A stretch of DNA of 41,368 nt from Ochromonas danica (taxonomy: Eukaryota > Sar > Chrysophyceae > Chromulinales > Chromulinaceae). Shown here piece after piece: positions 6,845-15,642 of this stretch. The notes under the pieces are model-generated. The model was not told the DNA's origin, did not search any database, and was given only the letters and a program-made list of their open reading frames with translations. The position numbers and the translations under genes are program-made. Where the stretch lies: positions 1 to 41,368 of the forward strand of contig VKHL01000208.1 in NCBI GenBank assembly GCA_015146655.1, given 5' to 3'. Position 1 is the first letter of the stretch, and each line of letters opens with the position of its first letter.

Positions 6845-7072
6845 AGGGTGGATACGATGTATGCAATGAGAAGAATAGAATGATCACGTCGAATCAATGG
6901 AATGGTGATGATGATATCATAAAGAAGCTTAATTGTTACCACTACATGTAGCCTGCAAGACTTGCACAGCTTCACAGAATGCTAGAATAACCACCCATAA
7001 CATCAACAGCACACATGTTACCTTTAGCATAATCTGATTCACAGGGAAGACTGTACGACGCCACCTTTCTCT

Positions 7073-9319
7073 TCACTCTTCCTCATGAGAATCGAAAAGA
7101 CCCTCTGGCTCTGTGGAGGAGGTGCCATCTCCCTCCTCAATGCTTGTCGATGCAGCCAAATCACCATCCTCATTAACTTCTCCCTTCTTGTCGACCACAA
7201 CTTCCTTGGAAGCGTCTCTCTCAATCGCCGACGGATCCGTCCTTTGCTCTTCGAGCTCTTCATCTGATGGCAAAGATTCAGTCGAATCGTCGGGATGAAT
7301 GGGTTCAGAAGGCACTTCTCCATTGTTTTGCAACACATCTGAATCTTGCTGCTCTTGCTTCACGTCCGGGTCGGGATGGAATAGCGAGTCTGCAATAGCA
7401 TGAACCAACTCTTCGATCTCTGTCTGCGATGACTCTTCCATGAACTCCTCGGTCTGCACTTCATTGAGAATAGGGTTGTCTTGGATCGAACTTTCTCCTT
7501 GAGGAAATGCCGAATCAGAAGAGGATTCCCCATCATGACTAATCTCTTCTTTCTGCTCTTTCTCTTCTTCGCCTTCCAGTTGGTCGAAGAGAGTGAAGGC
7601 CAATGTCGTCACTTTCTCCTTTTCAGGCAAAAAGCCGGGCAATTGGCAAGCCACTTTGAGCTCCACTTTTATCCGATACGCGCAAGTTCGCTCTTCGATC
7701 ACTTGCAAGATCTGATTTCTGAGCATACCAGACACAAAGCTTGTCATAGAAGTAAACGACGATATCAAAGCAAGAAGGTGTCTTACTGAGTTCCACAGAA
7801 GATGTCCAAAGTGGTCGATCTGTTGACATTGTCCAGATCGCAAGGTGTTCCATTCGTAAAAGGCAGAGAAAGATAGATAGGATCACGGTTCTTGTTCAGC
7901 AAAAGTGGAGAGAGTAGTCCAGTGTGGTTCAGCAGGTATTGCTCGCGGTCAGACGTCCATGTCGGCGCCATGCGAAGCTTCGAAGCCGCGCTGGAATGAC
8001 TTTGCAGGGCAGTCTCATTCTTGTAGATAGAGAGTGGTGGTTGGCCCAGAAAGAACTGACTGGCTAGAACTTGTTTCTGAACAACATTTCCATCTGTGCC
8101 TGCGACTTGTTCGATGTTAAAGCGCACTTGTCGAATGCCTTTCGAGAAGCAGACCTCGTATGACCACCAATCCTCTGTGTGAACAAGACAAGTATTCTCA
8201 AGCAGTCGCATCAGATCAACCATGTGAAAGCCCCTCGAATCAACTTTCATTTCAAGCGAAGCAGGATCACGTCCTCGGAGAGCATGTTTCCCGCCGCTAC
8301 CTGATGAGAAAGTATTGTGTTTGGCCTCTGCTTCAAGCAAAGGCGTCTGTGGGCAAAGCAAAGGGGAACACACCACAGCCAGATAGTGGCAGAGCTGAGG
8401 CTCTTCCACGACAGTCAAAGAAGCTTTGGGAATATGCTGATCGTTCTTGTCTTGTCGAAAATACATTTCAGAGGGAAGAGAGTTGGGCACTTGCAGTCCA
8501 TCGCAGCATTGGATGTGTACCTCCACAGAGCGCTCGTGACCATTCTCATCGCATCGCTGTCCACCTTTGAAGTGATCAACCACCTGCCAACAAGCCACAA
8601 TAACAACAACAATAACGATTCTTGGCAAGTACGTGCGCACTGTGGAAATGAAGGACCATAGCCTGGAGAATGACCATAACGCCCCCATCGTGAAGGTTCG
8701 TGGCGAACTTGCTTGCTTCACTTGGTGTTGATTTTCAACGTCTTCTGTTTTATTGTTGTTATTATTGTTATTAATTCGGCGACTTGATGAACTTATTGCC
8801 TCCACCCTGCTCGATGTGGAATTGGCTGAATTCCTTCCTACAAGAGCAGCAGACGGTCAGTGTCTTCCACGCGAATAGACAAGAGAGGGCTTACTTGTGA
8901 CACCATTCATAGTTCCAGTAGTCTGCTGGCAAGATCGCACACCATCCTTCTAGCGCCTTATTCAACGCCACGGGATCTGTCAGCTCCGTCTGCAGCAGAG
9001 CAGGCAAGTCAGTGGACGGAGTCACCGCGGCCGCCTTAAAAGTGATGCCTTCGAGGTTCTTCAAGAAGACCTCCTCGTTGGGAGCTTGGCGGATAAAGTC
9101 CAGAGAAGACTCTCCCAGGATGTCGAAGGTCATCTTCGAGCGAATCACTTCCAAGATCTCGTTCGTCTCCTCGTAGACGTCTCTGCCATTCCAAGGGTAG
9201 ACATCGAAGGGAACGGGAGTGATGAAAGCATAGGAGAGAAGGTGGGCAGTAATTAGAGTCAGCAGCAGAGAGGATTGGGAAGGCATTGATTTCCGAATGA
9301 TGAAGTCTCTCTCAGCCAT
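7073..9319 (-). CDS. ERLEC1: ER lectin with two MRH domains (ERLEC1/XTP3-B type)
   Basis: Exon 1 (9319-8895) encodes a signal peptide (SLLLTLITAHLLSYAF) and the start of the first MRH domain (DYWNYEWCHK). A 57-nt intron (8894-8838) leads to KEFSQFHIEQ. MRH1 continues as GGQRCDENGHERSVEV...LCHYLAVVCSPLLC. MRH2 runs from WWSYEVCFSKGIRQ through NGTPCDLDNVNRSTTLDIFCG, and a 68-nt intron (7786-7719) leads to NQILQVIEERTCAYRIKV. The Q, R, E and Y used by MRH domains to bind mannose are all present in MRH2. Between HIEQ and MRH1's second half another intron must remove an in-frame stop (about 8808-8585). Its ends are uncertain, and it may or may not take out the hydrophobic stretch RIVIVVVIVACW. The tail is very acidic. 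Proteins of this family recognise trimmed N-glycans on misfolded glycoproteins and hand them to the HRD1 ligase for ERAD. Confidence 0.85.
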
Positions 9320-9406
9320 TCCATGGAATTAGTACTGACCTCGTCGTTCCATGGAATGCTAGGGGTTGTGTGCAGGAGGGGCTGTGGAAGAAAACGAAAA
9401 GGAAAG
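9320..9406. promoter_or_regulatory. 87-bp divergent promoter of ER lectin (-) and OST4 (+)
   Basis: The two start codons face away from each other with 87 bp between them. Two palindromes, ATTCCATGGAAT (9318-9329, touching the lectin start) and TTCCATGGAA (9347-9356), lie 28 bp apart. A similar pair is found at 4106-4136. Both genes act on N-glycoproteins in the ER, so shared control makes sense. The right arm of the duplication has lost about 30 bp of this promoter, including one palindrome. Confidence 0.6.
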
Positions 9407-9520
9407 ATGGATTTGGACGAAAGCTTGATGAATTTTGTCAACGCCTTGGGCGTTATTACTTTTATTTCTATCGTTGCTTACCATGTCATCACAGCGACTC
9501 CCAAAGACGCGGAGTTCTAA
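9407..9520 (+). CDS. OST4: OST4, small subunit of oligosaccharyltransferase
   Basis: A 37-codon frame starting MDLDESLMNFVNALGV and ending YHVITATPKDAEF matches the OST4 family in length (human 37, yeast 36 residues) and layout: short acidic lumenal N-terminus, one transmembrane helix (about residues 9-28, NALGVITFISIVAYHV), and a short polar tail with PK. Shared positions with human OST4 include the F.N.LGV and YH motifs. OST4 stabilises the STT3-containing complex that transfers the dolichol-linked glycan to nascent proteins. I chose the ATG at 9407, not the upstream in-frame one at 9323, because family members begin right at this point. The gene is intronless, divergent from the ER lectin and convergent with the MMAA-like gene. 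A 12-codon remnant lies in the right arm. Confidence 0.85.
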   Translation: MDLDESLMNFVNALGVITFISIVAYHVITATPKDAEF

Positions 9521-9715
9521 AAGAGAAGGACGAGGAGGAATGCAATTGAGGTCTGCGGCTGTACCAGTGCCTGTAGGGGCAGGGTCTGTGGACTGTGATG
9601 AGAAGAAGTCTATAGCGAATAGGAAAGGCAGATAGGAGTGTTATGGTAGTGAGACGGGATTTGATCAGCCGGTGTCAAAATAATTACTAATTGAGTTGAT
9701 TAATCGCCATGAGCC

Positions 9716-10720
9716 TCAAGCCTTCACGGATAATACTAACTTGTCTAACATAGCTAAGGCAGCTGTTCGAGGAGCGTGTCTCCCATCATCAAGCTCTCGG
9801 AGCACCTGATCCATGTGCTCGGCCAGCCCGGGCAGTTCCGCGCAGCGCGCCGCCAAACCTCTGCGGAACTGACCCAAAGCCCAGAACCTGCGCTGGTCAA
9901 TGCGCTTCTGCGTTATCAATCCTTCCTTATTCAGAGTCTTCTGAAAATTAGCGATAGTTTCGTTGACTTTGTCCAGCTGGTAGCCGGTCTGTGCGGACAT
10001 CATCATCACTGGAGTCTCCCACACCGGGTACTTCCTCCGCACAAACTGCATGGCACCTGAGTAATCCGCCTTGGTATGTTTAGCAGCAGCCAATAGATTT
10101 CCATCCGCTTTGTTGATCAGGATCAGATCGGCAGCTTCCATGATTCCCTTTTTGGAAGCCTGCAAGGAGTCCCCGCCGCCGGGAGGTACTATAAGAATGA
10201 GCATGTCCACCGCCGCGTCAATGTCAACTTCTGACTGACCTAGCCCGACAGACTCCACAATGACCGTGTCGAAGCCGGCGGCCTCGCACAGTGTGATGAC
10301 ATCGGAAGTGTGCTCCGCTATGCCCCCCAACACCCCCCTGGTGGGAGAGGCGCGGATGTAAGCATCCATGGATCGAGACAGCTCGCCCATTCTTGTCTTA
10401 TCACCTAAAATGCTCCCTCCACTTATGTGAGAGGAAGGGTCCACAGGGATGACTGCCACGCGGTGATTCTCCTGCACATAGCCCATGCCCAGTCGCTCGA
10501 TGAAGGTGGACTTGCCCGCACCAGGAGGTCCAGCAATGCCAATACGAATTCCACCAGATCTCGCAGGCTGAACTCGATGCTTGGTGATGTATTCCAAGAG
10601 ATGCGAAGCCTGCTCACCGTGTCCGCGATGGGTAGACTCCACGAGAGTGATAGCACGAGCAAGGCAGTCTCTCCTTTTCTGCAGAAGGCCTTCACCCAGT
10701 GCTCTTGTGCTAGCCAACAT
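9716..10720 (-). CDS. MMAA: MMAA/MeaB (ArgK)-type P-loop GTPase
   Basis: The 334-residue protein aligns over its whole length with bacterial ArgK/MeaB and mitochondrial MMAA. It has the P-loop GPPGAGKS (64-71), DPSSHISGGSILGDKTRM (94-111), ESVGLGQSE (156-164) and NKAD (203-206). C-terminal helices end the family's GTPase and dimerisation unit. In the known family this G protein guards methylmalonyl-CoA mutase: it gates adenosylcobalamin loading and rescues the inactive cofactor, which implies B12-dependent propionate metabolism in mitochondria. The frame begins at the family's conserved part, with no obvious mitochondrial presequence. About 20 bp upstream a repeat fragment (10745-10888) begins, so a targeting exon may lie further upstream or have been lost. 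Confidence 0.93.
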   Translation of the reverse strand: MLASTRALGEGLLQKRRDCLARAITLVESTHRGHGEQASHLLEYITKHRVQPARSGGIRIGIAGPPGAGKSTFIERLGMGYVQENHRVAVIPVDPSSHISGGSILGDKTRMGELSRSMDAYIRASPTRGVLGGIAEHTSDVITLCEAAGFDTVIVESVGLGQSEVDIDAAVDMLILIVPPGGGDSLQASKKGIMEAADLILINKADGNLLAAAKHTKADYSGAMQFVRRKYPVWETPVMMMSAQTGYQLDKVNETIANFQKTLNKEGLITQKRIDQRRFWALGQFRRGLAARCAELPGLAEHMDQVLRELDDGRHAPRTAALAMLDKLVLSVKA

Positions 10721-10744
10721 AGTCGCTGATGAGGACTGGCCTGT

Positions 10745-10888
10745 GTAAAGACTTCTTTTCTGGTGAGCTTTTCCCAGAGCTGGAGAACATCAACCCGGAG
10801 AGTGCAGAGCTGAATGATCCCCGCGCAGCACAATAATACCACCTCCTTGAATGCCACCTCCCCCGCACCATAATAATAACCGTAGACA
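10745..10888 (-). repeat. 5'-end fragment of the dispersed unknown gene family, copy C
   Basis: This stretch matches 15470-15588: both contain GAGAACATCAACC, CCCCGCGCAGCACAATAATA and the terminus CCGCACCATAATAATAACC, after which the two loci differ completely. On the minus strand it contains the family's ATG (ATTATGGTGCGG) and first codons, but its frame differs from copy B. It is directly upstream of the MMAA-like gene and may now supply part of its leader. Confidence 0.65.
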
Positions 10889-10968
10889 ATCTGCAGCGAG
10901 TGAATGAGAATGGAATGCCACGCACCTGCTGTGGACTCGCCCCACTCAGAGCTCACCCCTGGTACAAA

Positions 10969-11074
10969 ATTTTCGTTTTCGGTTTTCGGAGTTGTGATAA
11001 CTCGGAGCTGAATGGCTGTTATAACTCGCTTTTTATGACTTTTCTTCAGGATTTTCGTTTTCGGTTTTCGGAGT
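10969..11074. repeat. Pair of 24-bp direct repeats
   Basis: ATTTTCGTTTTCGGTTTTCG plus GAGT occurs at 10969-10992 and again, identically, at 11051-11074, 82 bp apart. The meaning is unknown. From 10889 to 11485 I see no supported gene; the reading frames there are short and show no known features. Confidence 0.75.
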
Positions 11075-11485
11075 CTGCTGATGACCATCCCGAAAAGACC
11101 GTTTATGCGGGGAAAGGCTCATCATAGCCAATCGGTATAATGAAACAAATAGTTGGCCATTTCTCAAAATCAGTCCTACCGTTCCTAATTATATTCAAGG
11201 GTATGATAAAGAAAGTATTTGTAATATTTCTGGACTGCATTTTAGCAATGGTCCCTGGAATGAAGGGCCTCTCTGAGAGCAACTCAACCAGCCAAAGTTT
11301 CAAAACGCCAAAACTATGGACTTTTGGACTTCAGCACCCCAGAAAGTAGACGAAACCAAAATATCTTCGAAATAAAAATTCCATTTAATAGACTGTTGTT
11401 TGCTATATATTTTGTTGATTAACAGTCAAGCAGTTCTTTAATCATTTGCTATATATTTGTTGTAACTTAAGAAATTTCTGAATCG

Positions 11486-12027
11486 ATGCATTATTTTGGT
11501 CGAATTGCATCTTGGAGCCCTTGGGCCGATTCACTCGTTTCGGTGACCGAACAAGATACCGAGGACATCAGGCAACAAAAAAGCGAATCGTACAGATGTG
11601 GAAAACTAGTGGGATTTCCATGGATCAGGTTTGTAAGGTCCGGGGTTAAAAGAAAGGCACCTTGAGAGGATGGAACAGAAAGAACGGAGAAGTGGAAGAA
11701 ACGACAATCGATCAATTTCATGAAAGAAGCTGCCTTCCTCCTCTCTTCGACAAAGATGGTTTGTCTAACATTCATAAAAAGATGGTTGGTGAAGTTTGTC
11801 GGTGAATATTTCTTCGCAAACGTGAATTCTGTCAGATTTGTGGGGAAGAAGCTATGCCATGAAGCTGCACCATTTTCCTTGTGCTGCCGGCTTTCCAGCT
11901 CCTCCTGTCTTCATCAGCGTTGATTCTATGTTGAAGAAGAACGAGTACGAAGCATGTATGGTGCAAGGTCTTAGCAGAGGGACTACTTTTGAAATGGAAC
12001 AGTTGGGTTGCACAGATGACGAAAATT
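11486..12027 (+). pseudogene. 5' part of an unknown gene cut by the right duplication arm
   Basis: An ATG at 11486 opens a protein-like frame (MHYFGRIASWSPWADS...). A later frame (GTLRGWNRKNGEVEE ... LFDKDGLSNIHKK) can be spliced over a 47-nt GT-AG intron (about 11789-11835) to LWGRSYAMKLHHFPC...FISVDSMLKKNEYEA...MEQLGCTDDEN. There the right arm begins. The frame resumes at 14140 with KDHLNRGGEEAEFW and an acidic C-terminus ending EEEEDEDL. The reading frame also seems broken once before the insertion. I do not recognise the family. The argument for a single gene is phase continuity and matching composition across the insertion; it remains an inference. Confidence 0.45.
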
Positions 12028-12064
12028 CGTTGACAAAATTCATCAAGCTTTCGTCCAAATCCAT
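12028..12064 (-). pseudogene. OST4: OST4 5' remnant (12 codons)
   Basis: On the minus strand the ATG at 12064 opens MDLDESLMNFVN, identical to the OST4 N-terminus, and then runs into unrelated sequence at the duplication junction. The transmembrane helix is absent, so it cannot make OST4. It shows that the duplicated segment came from the OST4/lectin promoter side. Confidence 0.88.
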
Positions 12065-12118
12065 CTTTCCTTTTCGTTTTCTTCCACAGCCCCTCTCTGC
12101 ACAGAACCCTGGCATTCC

Positions 12119-13996
12119 ATGTCGAAGATGACCTTCGACATCCTGGGAGAGTCTTCTCTGGACTTTATCCGCCAAGCTCCCAACGAGGAGGTCTTCTTGA
12201 AGAACCTCGAAGGCATCACTTTTAAGGCGGCCGCGGTGACTCCGTCCACTGACTTGCCTGCTCTGCTGCAGACGGAGCTGACAGATCCCGTGGCGTTGAA
12301 TAAGGCGCTAGAAGGATGGTGTGCGATCTTGCCAGCAGACTACTGGAACTATGAATGGTGTCACAAGTAAGCCCTCTCTTGTCTATTCGCGTGGAAGACA
12401 CTGACCGTCTGCTGCTCTTGTAGGAAGGAATTCAGCCAATTCCACATCGAGCAGGGTGGAGGCAATAAGTTCATCAAGTCGCCGAATTAATAACAATAAT
12501 AACAACAATAAAACAGAAGACGTTGAAAATCAACACCAAGTGAAGCAAGCAAGTTCGCCACGAACCTTCACGATGGGGGCGTTATGGTCATTCTCCAGGC
12601 TATGGTCCTTCATTTCCACAGTGCGCACGTACTTGCCAAGAATCGTTATTGTTGTTGTTATTGTGGCTTGTTGGCAGGTGGTTGATCACTTCAAAGGTGG
12701 ACAGCGATGCGATGAGAATGGTCACGAGCGCTCTGTGGAGGTACACATCCAATGCTGCGATGGACTGCAAGTGCCCAACTCTCTTCCCTCTGAAATGTAT
12801 TTTCGACAAGACAAGAACGATCAGCATATTCCCAAAGCTTCTTTGACTGTCGTGGAAGAGCCTCAGCTCTGCCACTATCTGGCTGTGGTGTGTTCCCCTT
12901 TGCTTTGCCCACAGACGCCTTTGCTTGAAGCAGAGGCCAAACACAATACTTTCTCATCAGGTAGCGGCGGGAAACATGCTCTCCGAGGACGTGATCCTGC
13001 TTCGCTTGAAATGAAAGTTGATTCGAGGGGCTTTCACATGGTTGATCTGATGCGACTGCTTGAGAATACTTGTCTTGTTCACACAGAGGATTGGTGGTCA
13101 TACGAGGTCTGCTTCTCGAAAGGCATTCGACAAGTGCGCTTTAACATCGAACAAGTCGCAGGCACAGATGGAAATGTTGTTCAGAAACAAGTTCTAGCCA
13201 GTCAGTTCTTTCTGGGCCAACCACCACTCTCTATCTACAAGAATGAGACTGCCCTGCAAAGTCATTCCAGCGCGGCTTCGAAGCTTCGCATGGCGCCGAC
13301 ATGGACGTCTGACCGCGAGCAATACCTGCTGAACCACACTGGACTACTCTCTCCACTTTTGCTGAACAAGAACCGTGATCCTATCTATCTTTCTCTGCCT
13401 TTTACGAATGGAACACCTTGCGATCTGGACAATGTCAACAGATCGACCACTTTGGACATCTTCTGTGGAACTCAGTAAGACACCTTCTTGCTTTGATATC
13501 GTCGTTTACTTCTATGACAAGCTTTGTGTCTGGTATGCTCAGAAATCAGATCTTGCAAGTGATCGAAGAGCGAACTTGCGCGTATCGGATAAAAGTGGAG
13601 CTCAAAGTGGCTTGCCAATTGCCCGGCTTTTTGCCTGAAAAGGAGAAAGTGACGACATTGGCCTTCACTCTCTTCGACCAACTGGAAGGCGAAGAAGAGC
13701 AAGAGCAGAAAGAAGAGATTAGTCAGTCAGATGAGTTGCAAAACAATGAAGAAGTGCCTTCTGAACCCATTCATCCCGACGATTCGACTGAATCTTTGCC
13801 ATCAGATGAAGAGCTCGAAGAGCAAAGGACGGATCCGTCGGCGATTGAGAGAGACGCTTCCAAGGAAGTTGTGGTCGACAAGAAGGGAGAAGTTAATGAG
13901 GATGGTGATTTGGCTGCATCGACAAGCATTGAGGAGGGAGATGGCACCTCCTCCACAGAGCCAGAGGGTCTTTTCGATTCTCATGAGGAAGAGTGA
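12119..13996 (+). pseudogene. Truncated second copy of the two-MRH ER lectin (no signal peptide)
   Basis: The copy keeps introns at 12367-12423 and 13475-13542 and the main coding block, which is identical to the left copy over at least 340 codons. A 210-bp deletion removed the original start, the signal peptide and the first 60 codons in all, plus about 30 bp of promoter. The join makes a new in-frame start, ATG TCG AAG ATG (MSKMTFDILGES). A second in-frame deletion removes 64 codons of the acidic linker (EEISQSDELQNN instead of the long form). Without the signal peptide the product could not enter the ER by the usual route. It may be a pseudogene, or a cytosolic lectin-like product if transcribed; the open frames and intact splice sites leave both options. 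Confidence 0.75.
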
Positions 13997-14139
13997 AGAG
14001 AAAGGTGGCGTCGTACAGTCTTCCCTGTGAATCAGATTATGCTAAAGGTAACATGTGTGCTGTTGATGTTATGGGTGGTTATTCTAGCATTCTGCGAAGC
14101 AATGCAAGTCTTGCAGGCTACATGTAGTGGTAACAATTA

Positions 14140-14228
14140 ACAAGGACCATCTAAACCGTGGTGGCGAAGAAGCTGAATTCTGGGGTCGAGAAGAGGTGGC
14201 AGAGGAAGAAGAAGATGAGGATCTATGA
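14140..14228 (+). pseudogene. 3' tail of the gene interrupted by the right arm
   Basis: Directly after the duplication junction the frame KDHLNRGGEEAEFWGREE continues to an acidic end, EEEEDEDL, and a TGA at 14226-14228. If the arm is removed at 12028/14139 the phase matches the frame ending CTDDEN at 12026. The rest of the interval to 14417 holds no gene that I can support. Confidence 0.4.
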
Positions 14229-14417
14229 TTGTTAAATGTAGATTGATAAGCTAGTATGTGACTGCTAACAGAAAACAATATGCTGTGATAAACTTATATT
14301 ACTAAAACTACTGATGGCGACTACACGATGCCGCACGAGGTGACTACAATAACCCTTTTGTCTTAGTCGGAAGAAAAATAATGCACAGAAAGATATATCC
14401 TAGAACAATAATTAAGC

Positions 14418-15583
14418 TTAAGTAAGTAGCTTTCCTACTAACTTATACAACACATCCCTGTTGGGAATATCCGTGTCTTTGCAGCAATCCAGTAGCGCGA
14501 AACGATGTCCGTTGTTCGTCACTGTGCCATCTGGTTGTAATTTTGGATGGGCCGCGGAATTAAAAAGCTCTTTCAGGTTGCGGAGATCTTGAAGTAGCAG
14601 GTCCTTCAGTTTGCCAGCGCTGCTAGGTCTAACGCTATTTGCCGTAAATAGGCATTTTGTTCTGCTGTCTTCTGCTTGCTTCTGGCCTGTAGCATCTCTT
14701 CTCTGGTCTGTAGCATCTCTTCCTCGACAGCTGACAGCCTTGCTTCCAAACTGGAACAATTCGGACACCAGAATACATTGGGATTACGGTGTTGTATAAA
14801 GATCTCCACTCCGTTCCTTTCCTCGACATGACCCGATAAATCCTCGGCACTGTGGCGAGTCTTTTTAGCCACCATCGGAATGGCTTCGCTGATAATTGCG
14901 TGTGAACTTATCGATCTCTTTATGGTGAGGGTGCCGATGTTGTGGTCCTGGGCTGGAAAATGCTTTTCCGGGGTGCGGAAAAGCACAACGGCGGATTCCA
15001 TCCCTGACACTCTGTCTTAGACCTTAACTAAGGTCGAGGGCTAAGGTTTAGAAAACCCTGATTTTCCTAGATAAAACTCTTCTTTGAAGAAGGGAAAACT
15101 CTTCATTATCTGCGAAAATCAGGGTTTCCTAAATTAAGGAAGTTTTTAATTTATGTATTTCCTTAACGCAATTGAGGTATTTCCTCACTAGATTTATGTA
15201 TTTCCTCACTAGATTTATGTATTTGCTCTGTATTTATGTAAATGGTCAGAAAAAACTCGACTTCTGAAAAAGGCTGCGAATCGGCTAAGGTCCTTAGTTA
15301 AGGTCTAAGACAGAGTGCCTGAGGCAGCATCGGCATATGAGAGTCGGCTCATTGTAAGTGAACTTACGATTGTTGCGGGGGGTTCTTGAGCTCGTTGATA
15401 ATTCTTGATGAAGTCCACCCGTACCAGCCTTTCGTATTTCGGGATTTTCGTGACGATAAAACGCGTTTAAGAAGGTGGTTTGTTGGATGAGCTTTTCGGA
15501 GAACATCAACCACGATGGATGGTCCCCGCGCAGCACAATAATACCCCCTCCTTGATACCACTTTCCCCGCACCATAATAATAA
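14418..15583 (-). CDS. Dispersed unknown gene, copy B (zinc-knuckle-like motif and coiled coil), with a MITE in its intron
   Basis: The proposed exon 1 (15575-15368) starts MVRGKWYQGGGIIVLRGDHP. An intron (15367-15004) leads to exon 2 (15003-14606), which starts ESAVVLFRTPEKHF, carries HVEERNGVEIFIQH and NPNVFWCPNC, and ends in a coiled coil (EEEMLQTREEMLQARS). The total is about 201 residues. The exon phases agree (1/1). Another open frame, LKDLLLQDLRNLKELF...RDVLYKLVGKLLT, follows down to 14418 and may belong to the same ancestral product. Parts of this gene recur at 3-179 and 10745-10888, so it is multicopy. I recognise no transposase, polymerase or host family. The 5' boundary of the homology (15588) abuts the kinase-ankyrin gene. 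Confidence 0.45.
15008..15317. mobile_element. 310-bp MITE with 26-bp perfect terminal inverted repeats
   Basis: The ends are CACTCTGTCTTAGACCTTAA.. (15008-15033) and its exact reverse complement (15292-15317). A 5-bp duplication, CCTGA, flanks both sides (15003-15007 and 15318-15322). Inside are a subterminal inverted pair (AACCCTGATTTTC / GAAAATCAGGGTT) and about three tandem copies of a 22-bp unit (TTTATGTATTTCCTCACTAG, 15170-15236). There is no coding capacity. The perfect ends suggest a recent insertion. The superfamily is open: a 5-bp duplication with 5'-CAC ends fits Transib-like elements, but CACTA-type elements also start CACT. Confidence 0.9.
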
Positions 15584-15642
15584 CCGAGCTACAGAAGGAA
15601 ATCGAAATCCTGCTCACTAGAAGAGAAGCAGTTCTCCGAGAA

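Follow-up and report, generated by a model that had tools for sequence, protein, structure and literature searches.

We report an inverted segmental duplication in Ochromonas danica in which one arm (B) is read, tentatively, as a single recent copy of the other arm (A), made by break repair or template switching with error-prone joints. The window, i.e. the whole stretch analysed, is the complete 41,368-bp contig C208 of an assembly of 31.19 Mb in 337 contigs. An older inverted duplication, the middle of which has been kept identical by gene conversion between the arms, is a serious rival that follows close behind and is a real possibility.

Two inverted arms and the extent of their identity

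Self-comparison of the contig by BLAST places arms of 2515 bp (A) and 2113 bp (B) on either side of a 2584-bp spacer, in agreement with the sequence-only reading, which had described inverted arms of 2.1 and 2.5 kb about 2.6 kb apart and two deletions, both of which are found in B:

6929..9443, minus strand: arm A, the source copy, including the lectin gene, the stretch between it and OST4, and 37 bp from the start of OST4 (BLAST, alignment, Pfam, PDB sequence matches)
12028..14140, plus strand: arm B, the inverted copy derived from A, in which two internal stretches are deleted, OST4 is truncated and the N-terminal stretch of A is lacking (BLAST, alignment)
9140..9349, minus strand: deletion 1, 210 bp of A missing from B, covering the 5' leader, the start codon and the N-terminal hydrophobic stretch; a multiple of three
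about 7343..7534, minus strand: deletion 2, an in-frame loss from B of 192 bp present in A, equal to 64 codons of the acidic tail; its limits may shift by one or two bases

Three BLAST blocks connect the arms: one of 1604 bp containing a single mismatch, one of 414 bp containing 5 and one of 95 columns containing 2 mismatches together with 2 one-base gaps. This gives 8 mismatches and 2 one-base gaps in total, plus an ambiguous base at deletion 2. The identical core of about 1.9 kb described earlier is borne out in its identity but does not form a single block, since the longest exact runs in the base-by-base alignment are 1578 and 345 bp. Identity had been said to hold even in non-coding frames, and it extends through the inferred introns as well as the coding stretches. 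A 601-bp core query finds two matches in the 31.19-Mb assembly, A and B themselves, and outside the arms only 6 of 40 flanking bases agree on each side.

The lectin gene, OST4 and the direction of copying

Arm A carries an apparently complete gene running from a start codon at 9319 to a stop at 7073, its exons and introns being read by eye. The gene product matches the MRH-type Pfam families PRKCSH (4.3e-9, 37.6 bits against a cut-off of 27) and PRKCSH_1 (7.8e-7) as well as the PDB sequences of OS-9 (3aih, 1.6e-6) and ERLEC1 (0.0012), and judged from these matches the gene is a predicted ER lectin of the OS-9/ERLEC1 type with an MRH domain. It resembles the MRH-domain ER lectins OS-9 and XTP3-B (ERLEC1) in these matches and in an N-terminal hydrophobic stretch seen by eye; B, a putative lectin, differs from them in missing this stretch. 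Divergent from the lectin gene lies a second gene:

9407..9520, plus strand: OST4 gene, 37 amino acids (Pfam Ost4 2.5e-9, 37.2 bits against a cut-off of 25)

The starts of the lectin gene and OST4 are 87 bp apart in A, and of OST4 only the first 37 bp are present in B. As B has a truncated OST4 and lacks the N-terminal stretch while A has the whole lectin gene and an intact OST4, A is the source and B the copy.

In B, deletion 1 brings an upstream ATG into frame with the lectin coding sequence, and exon 1 is open from there. The frame of B is open across both deletions, both being multiples of three, which by our own reckoning happens by chance in about 1 case in 9; an open frame is also what a copy kept for some time would show, in favour of the conversion view. 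In A, a seven-codon upstream reading frame at 9329-9352 precedes the lectin start, and its ATG is the one serving as the in-frame start in B. We consider it improbable that a new gene arose directly from the repair event in a single step, through the ATG fusion and the in-frame deletion 2; if it did, B could encode a shortened predicted lectin without signal peptide, working outside the ER.

Changes cluster beside the joints

The differences between the arms fall into the following places of B (alignment and position statistics for all three):

12096..12117, plus strand: clump of changes adjoining deletion 1
13700..13749, plus strand: changes flanking deletion 2 on both sides
14095..14102, plus strand: three changes within 8 bp, at 38-45 bp from the right end of B

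The sequence-only reading had proposed looking at the distribution of changes along the aligned arms, and this is uneven: all ten coded events lie within 45 bp of a joint, i.e. a deletion or an arm end, a zone making up 12.9 percent of the arm. The changes at deletion 1 lie about 5-26 bp to its outer side, those at deletion 2 about 25 bp ahead of it and 8-24 bp beyond it, and the remainder near the right arm end. The clustering at joints has a p of about 1e-9 for the ten events if these are independent and of about 2e-4 for the four clump centres, and the long run alone has a p of 1e-5 (ten events) or 0.02 (four clumps), with event and clump positions set by hand, two of them off by one base, and the left clump counting four or five changes. 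Between 46 and 150 bp from a joint no coded change is present; the joint rate would predict 15 there, or 6 if clumps are counted instead. The 2029 bp outside the clumps are identical, limiting divergence there to less than about 0.15 percent (95 percent bound); as this includes the inferred introns, it suggests youth rather than selection.

Substitutions had been placed beside the two deletions and in the outermost 100 bp or so of the arms; the former is confirmed, the latter needs correction, as changes do not fill that zone and the outermost 68 bp of B on the left (12028-12095) and 38 bp on the right (14103-14140) are identical to A. The accompanying argument, that a young duplication would scatter its changes evenly, does not follow, because error-prone repair also predicts clumps at joints.

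The same pattern can be put in terms of conversion, the tracts of which would stop at both heterologies and near the right arm end so that older differences survive there, and the two long exact runs are indeed bounded by heterologies or a clump. Yet conversion should reach the very ends of the arms least, and it is there that 68 and 38 bp are clean; a group of four or five changes packed into 22 bp next to 68 clean bases is furthermore unlike independent old substitutions. The gene conversion proposed in the sequence-only reading is upheld as a process credible in this genome, given three light-harvesting (LHC) paralogues with an identical tract of about 400 bp (see below), and is not supported in its prediction of diverged edges at the very ends.

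The surroundings of B and a possible patched break

Immediately to the left of B, two further pieces follow each other:

11428..11985, minus strand: fragment of a 2.1-kb transposon family with terminal inverted repeats, ending just before B (sequence matches)
11989..12025, plus strand: 37-bp piece, identical at 36 of 37 bases to C10:145821-145857, ending 2 bases before B

The order at the left joint is therefore transposon fragment, C10-like piece, two bases and B. To the right of B, 14141-14737 has no match among the candidates scored (40 of 57). According to the model we favour, a break in or beside the old transposon fragment would have been patched by copying, first about 37 bp also found on contig C10, then two bases and then 2.1 kb of the neighbouring lectin/OST4 locus in inverted orientation. 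Copying would have skipped 210 and 192 bp before rejoining unrelated DNA, error-prone synthesis at the joints would have left the clumped changes, which in this model arose in B, and the remainder of the arm would be identical because the event is recent. A single repair event of this kind, to which the 37-bp piece presumably also belongs, would account at once for the inverted orientation, the left patchwork, both skips, the clumped changes and the identity of the very ends. Support for it comes from the patchwork, the clean outermost 68 and 38 bp and the stretch without coded changes 46-150 bp from a joint. Counting against the repair copy, inspection by eye reveals no evident microhomology at either the left joint or deletion 1, and a 13-base search of the window finds no templates for the altered stretches of B.

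As B adjoins a transposon fragment, we also considered that a transposon carrying a lectin fragment captured it as a Pack-type element, which we regard as very improbable. The adjoining family has 56-bp inverted ends and at least 63 matches listed in the assembly, but its terminal 20 bases have no match in the window at up to 3 mismatches. The sole MITE inverted-end pair found, at 15008-15317, does not enclose B, so that enclosing inverted ends are found for neither family seen; by eye there is no target-site duplication, and the 601-bp core query of the assembly reveals no third copy.

We further asked whether B interrupts a gene by joining its flanks at four right-hand positions, and in one join one frame is open through both sides. 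The left part of this open join consists of the transposon and the 37-bp piece, and 11910-12026 has no Pfam match; an interrupted gene is not claimed.

Comparison loci in the same genome

The assembly has 47 matches to the LHC family, which mark the organism as a photosynthetic eukaryote. For comparison we aligned 22 loci holding 26 of these 47 matches, resulting in 88 alignments of at least 300 bp. Three LHC paralogues, the array on contig C224 and two genes on contig C23, share an identical tract of about 400 bp inside otherwise diverged genes:

L050 (C224:6500-16400), L054 and L055 (both on C23): LHC loci with the common tract of about 400 bp (alignment)

The C224 and C23 copies align over 1679 columns, of which 205 differ, and have an exact run of 413 bp; the C23 pair is exact over 431 of 666, and a fourth paralogue, on contig C22, shows about 4 percent difference inside the tract. 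An identical tract between densely diverged sides, with the C22 paralogue differing inside it, suggests that conversion is active in this genome, which strengthens the conversion view of A and B. Two of the comparisons, however, have densely diverged sides, unlike A and B; between C224 and one C23 gene the differences are dense on both sides of the tract and continue to the ends.

A closer parallel comes from a pair of LHC genes about 17 kb apart on contig C10 (L052, L053). An exact core of 690 bp within 770 bp is accompanied by differences in 7 of the first 50 columns and 3 of the last 70, and the flanks are unrelated, matching at 13 and 9 of 40 bases. From its alignment this pattern appears much like that of A and B, and for this reason we lowered our confidence in the repair copy and raised that in conversion, to which the C10 pair and the C224 and C23 tracts all lend support.

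Transposon copies give a similar picture: those on contigs C118 and C90 differ at 16 places and have a 1154-bp exact run, and those on C118 and C18 share an exact run of 973 bp, with 5 substitutions over the last 154 bp and, in the other block, 7 over the first 141 bp. The genome thus has repeated instances of long exact cores whose differences lie towards the ends, so the pattern is not special to this locus, which counts against the repair copy and fits conversion or, less well, collapse of copies in the assembly.

An assembly artefact, with one consensus given to the core of two diverged copies or with a chimeric B, is in our view unlikely. Five contig ends lie in or beside repeats, namely both ends of C208 and ends of C44, C188 and C301, though these were chance sightings and not a sample, and long exact runs occur between near-identical transposon copies that lie on separate contigs, as would follow from collapse. 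Nevertheless, a tandem array on C224 (L050 and L051, C224:8233-17379) is laid out with about 3.8 practically identical copies of a 2407-bp unit containing an LHC gene, and the transposon copies with the 1154- and 973-bp exact runs are spanned on three contigs. When repeats 1+2 of the array are compared with 2+3, a one-base indel lies 6 bp from the left end and exact agreement follows for 4806 bases; the final, incomplete unit carries 3 substitutions in the 90 bp at its right end. Laying out this array and spanning these copies needs long-range data, unless they are artefacts too. An inverted LHC pair on contig C166 (L049:1539-3849) has 1070-bp arms that are identical throughout, a 171-bp spacer and flanks with 10 of 40 bases in common, which shows that arm ends are not systematically accompanied by changes. 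Collapse should moreover leave changes 46-150 bp from a joint, and none is seen. As a candidate sign of the type of assembly we looked for overlapping contig ends; those of C208 have partial matches (94 and 96 percent) and no exact partner.

Relation to known mechanisms

FoSTeS and MMBIR are forms of replicative template switching, templated-insertion end joining also makes complex duplications, and Pack-type elements capture genes by transposon. With template switching or templated-insertion end joining, A and B would share the inverted local copy, the patchwork at a joint, the internal skips and the changes clumped at joints. In the sections of a human series bearing on this, templated insertions, small deletions and insertions and single-base variants are described at or near duplication joints (PMC6902434). 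These sections concern human disease loci, and A and B differ from FoSTeS/MMBIR in having no evident microhomology and in that a single event is our interpretation. With ectopic (interlocus) gene conversion, as in duplicated genes and palindrome arms, A and B share the long exact core of nearby inverted copies and the differences at heterologies; they differ from it in that the very arm ends are undiverged. A section of a fly review holds that divergence, often in flanking edges, argues against taking converted copies for young copy-number variants (PMC3924832), and the flanking-edge divergence meant in that section is missing at the very ends of A and B. The duplication is probably a neat but ordinary one of its kind. 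It provides a compact example of clumped changes at duplication joints that do not have to be read as gene conversion, and a single alga offers joint clumps, converted-looking tracts and one pair that is hard to tell apart.

Other repeats in the window

Rfam at gathering thresholds finds no RNA families in the window. A direct repeat of about 72 bp, 90 percent identical, lies on either side of B and the patchwork (10811-10882 and 15516-15586) and is the only match to that stretch among the matches listed. The MITE-like element at 15008-15317 has perfect 26-bp inverted ends and is one of a dispersed family. A second, shorter inverted duplication, 94 percent identical, connects 3-131 at the left end of the contig with 14738-14863, and an imperfect self-complementary stretch of about 144 bp (82 percent) is found at 283-426.
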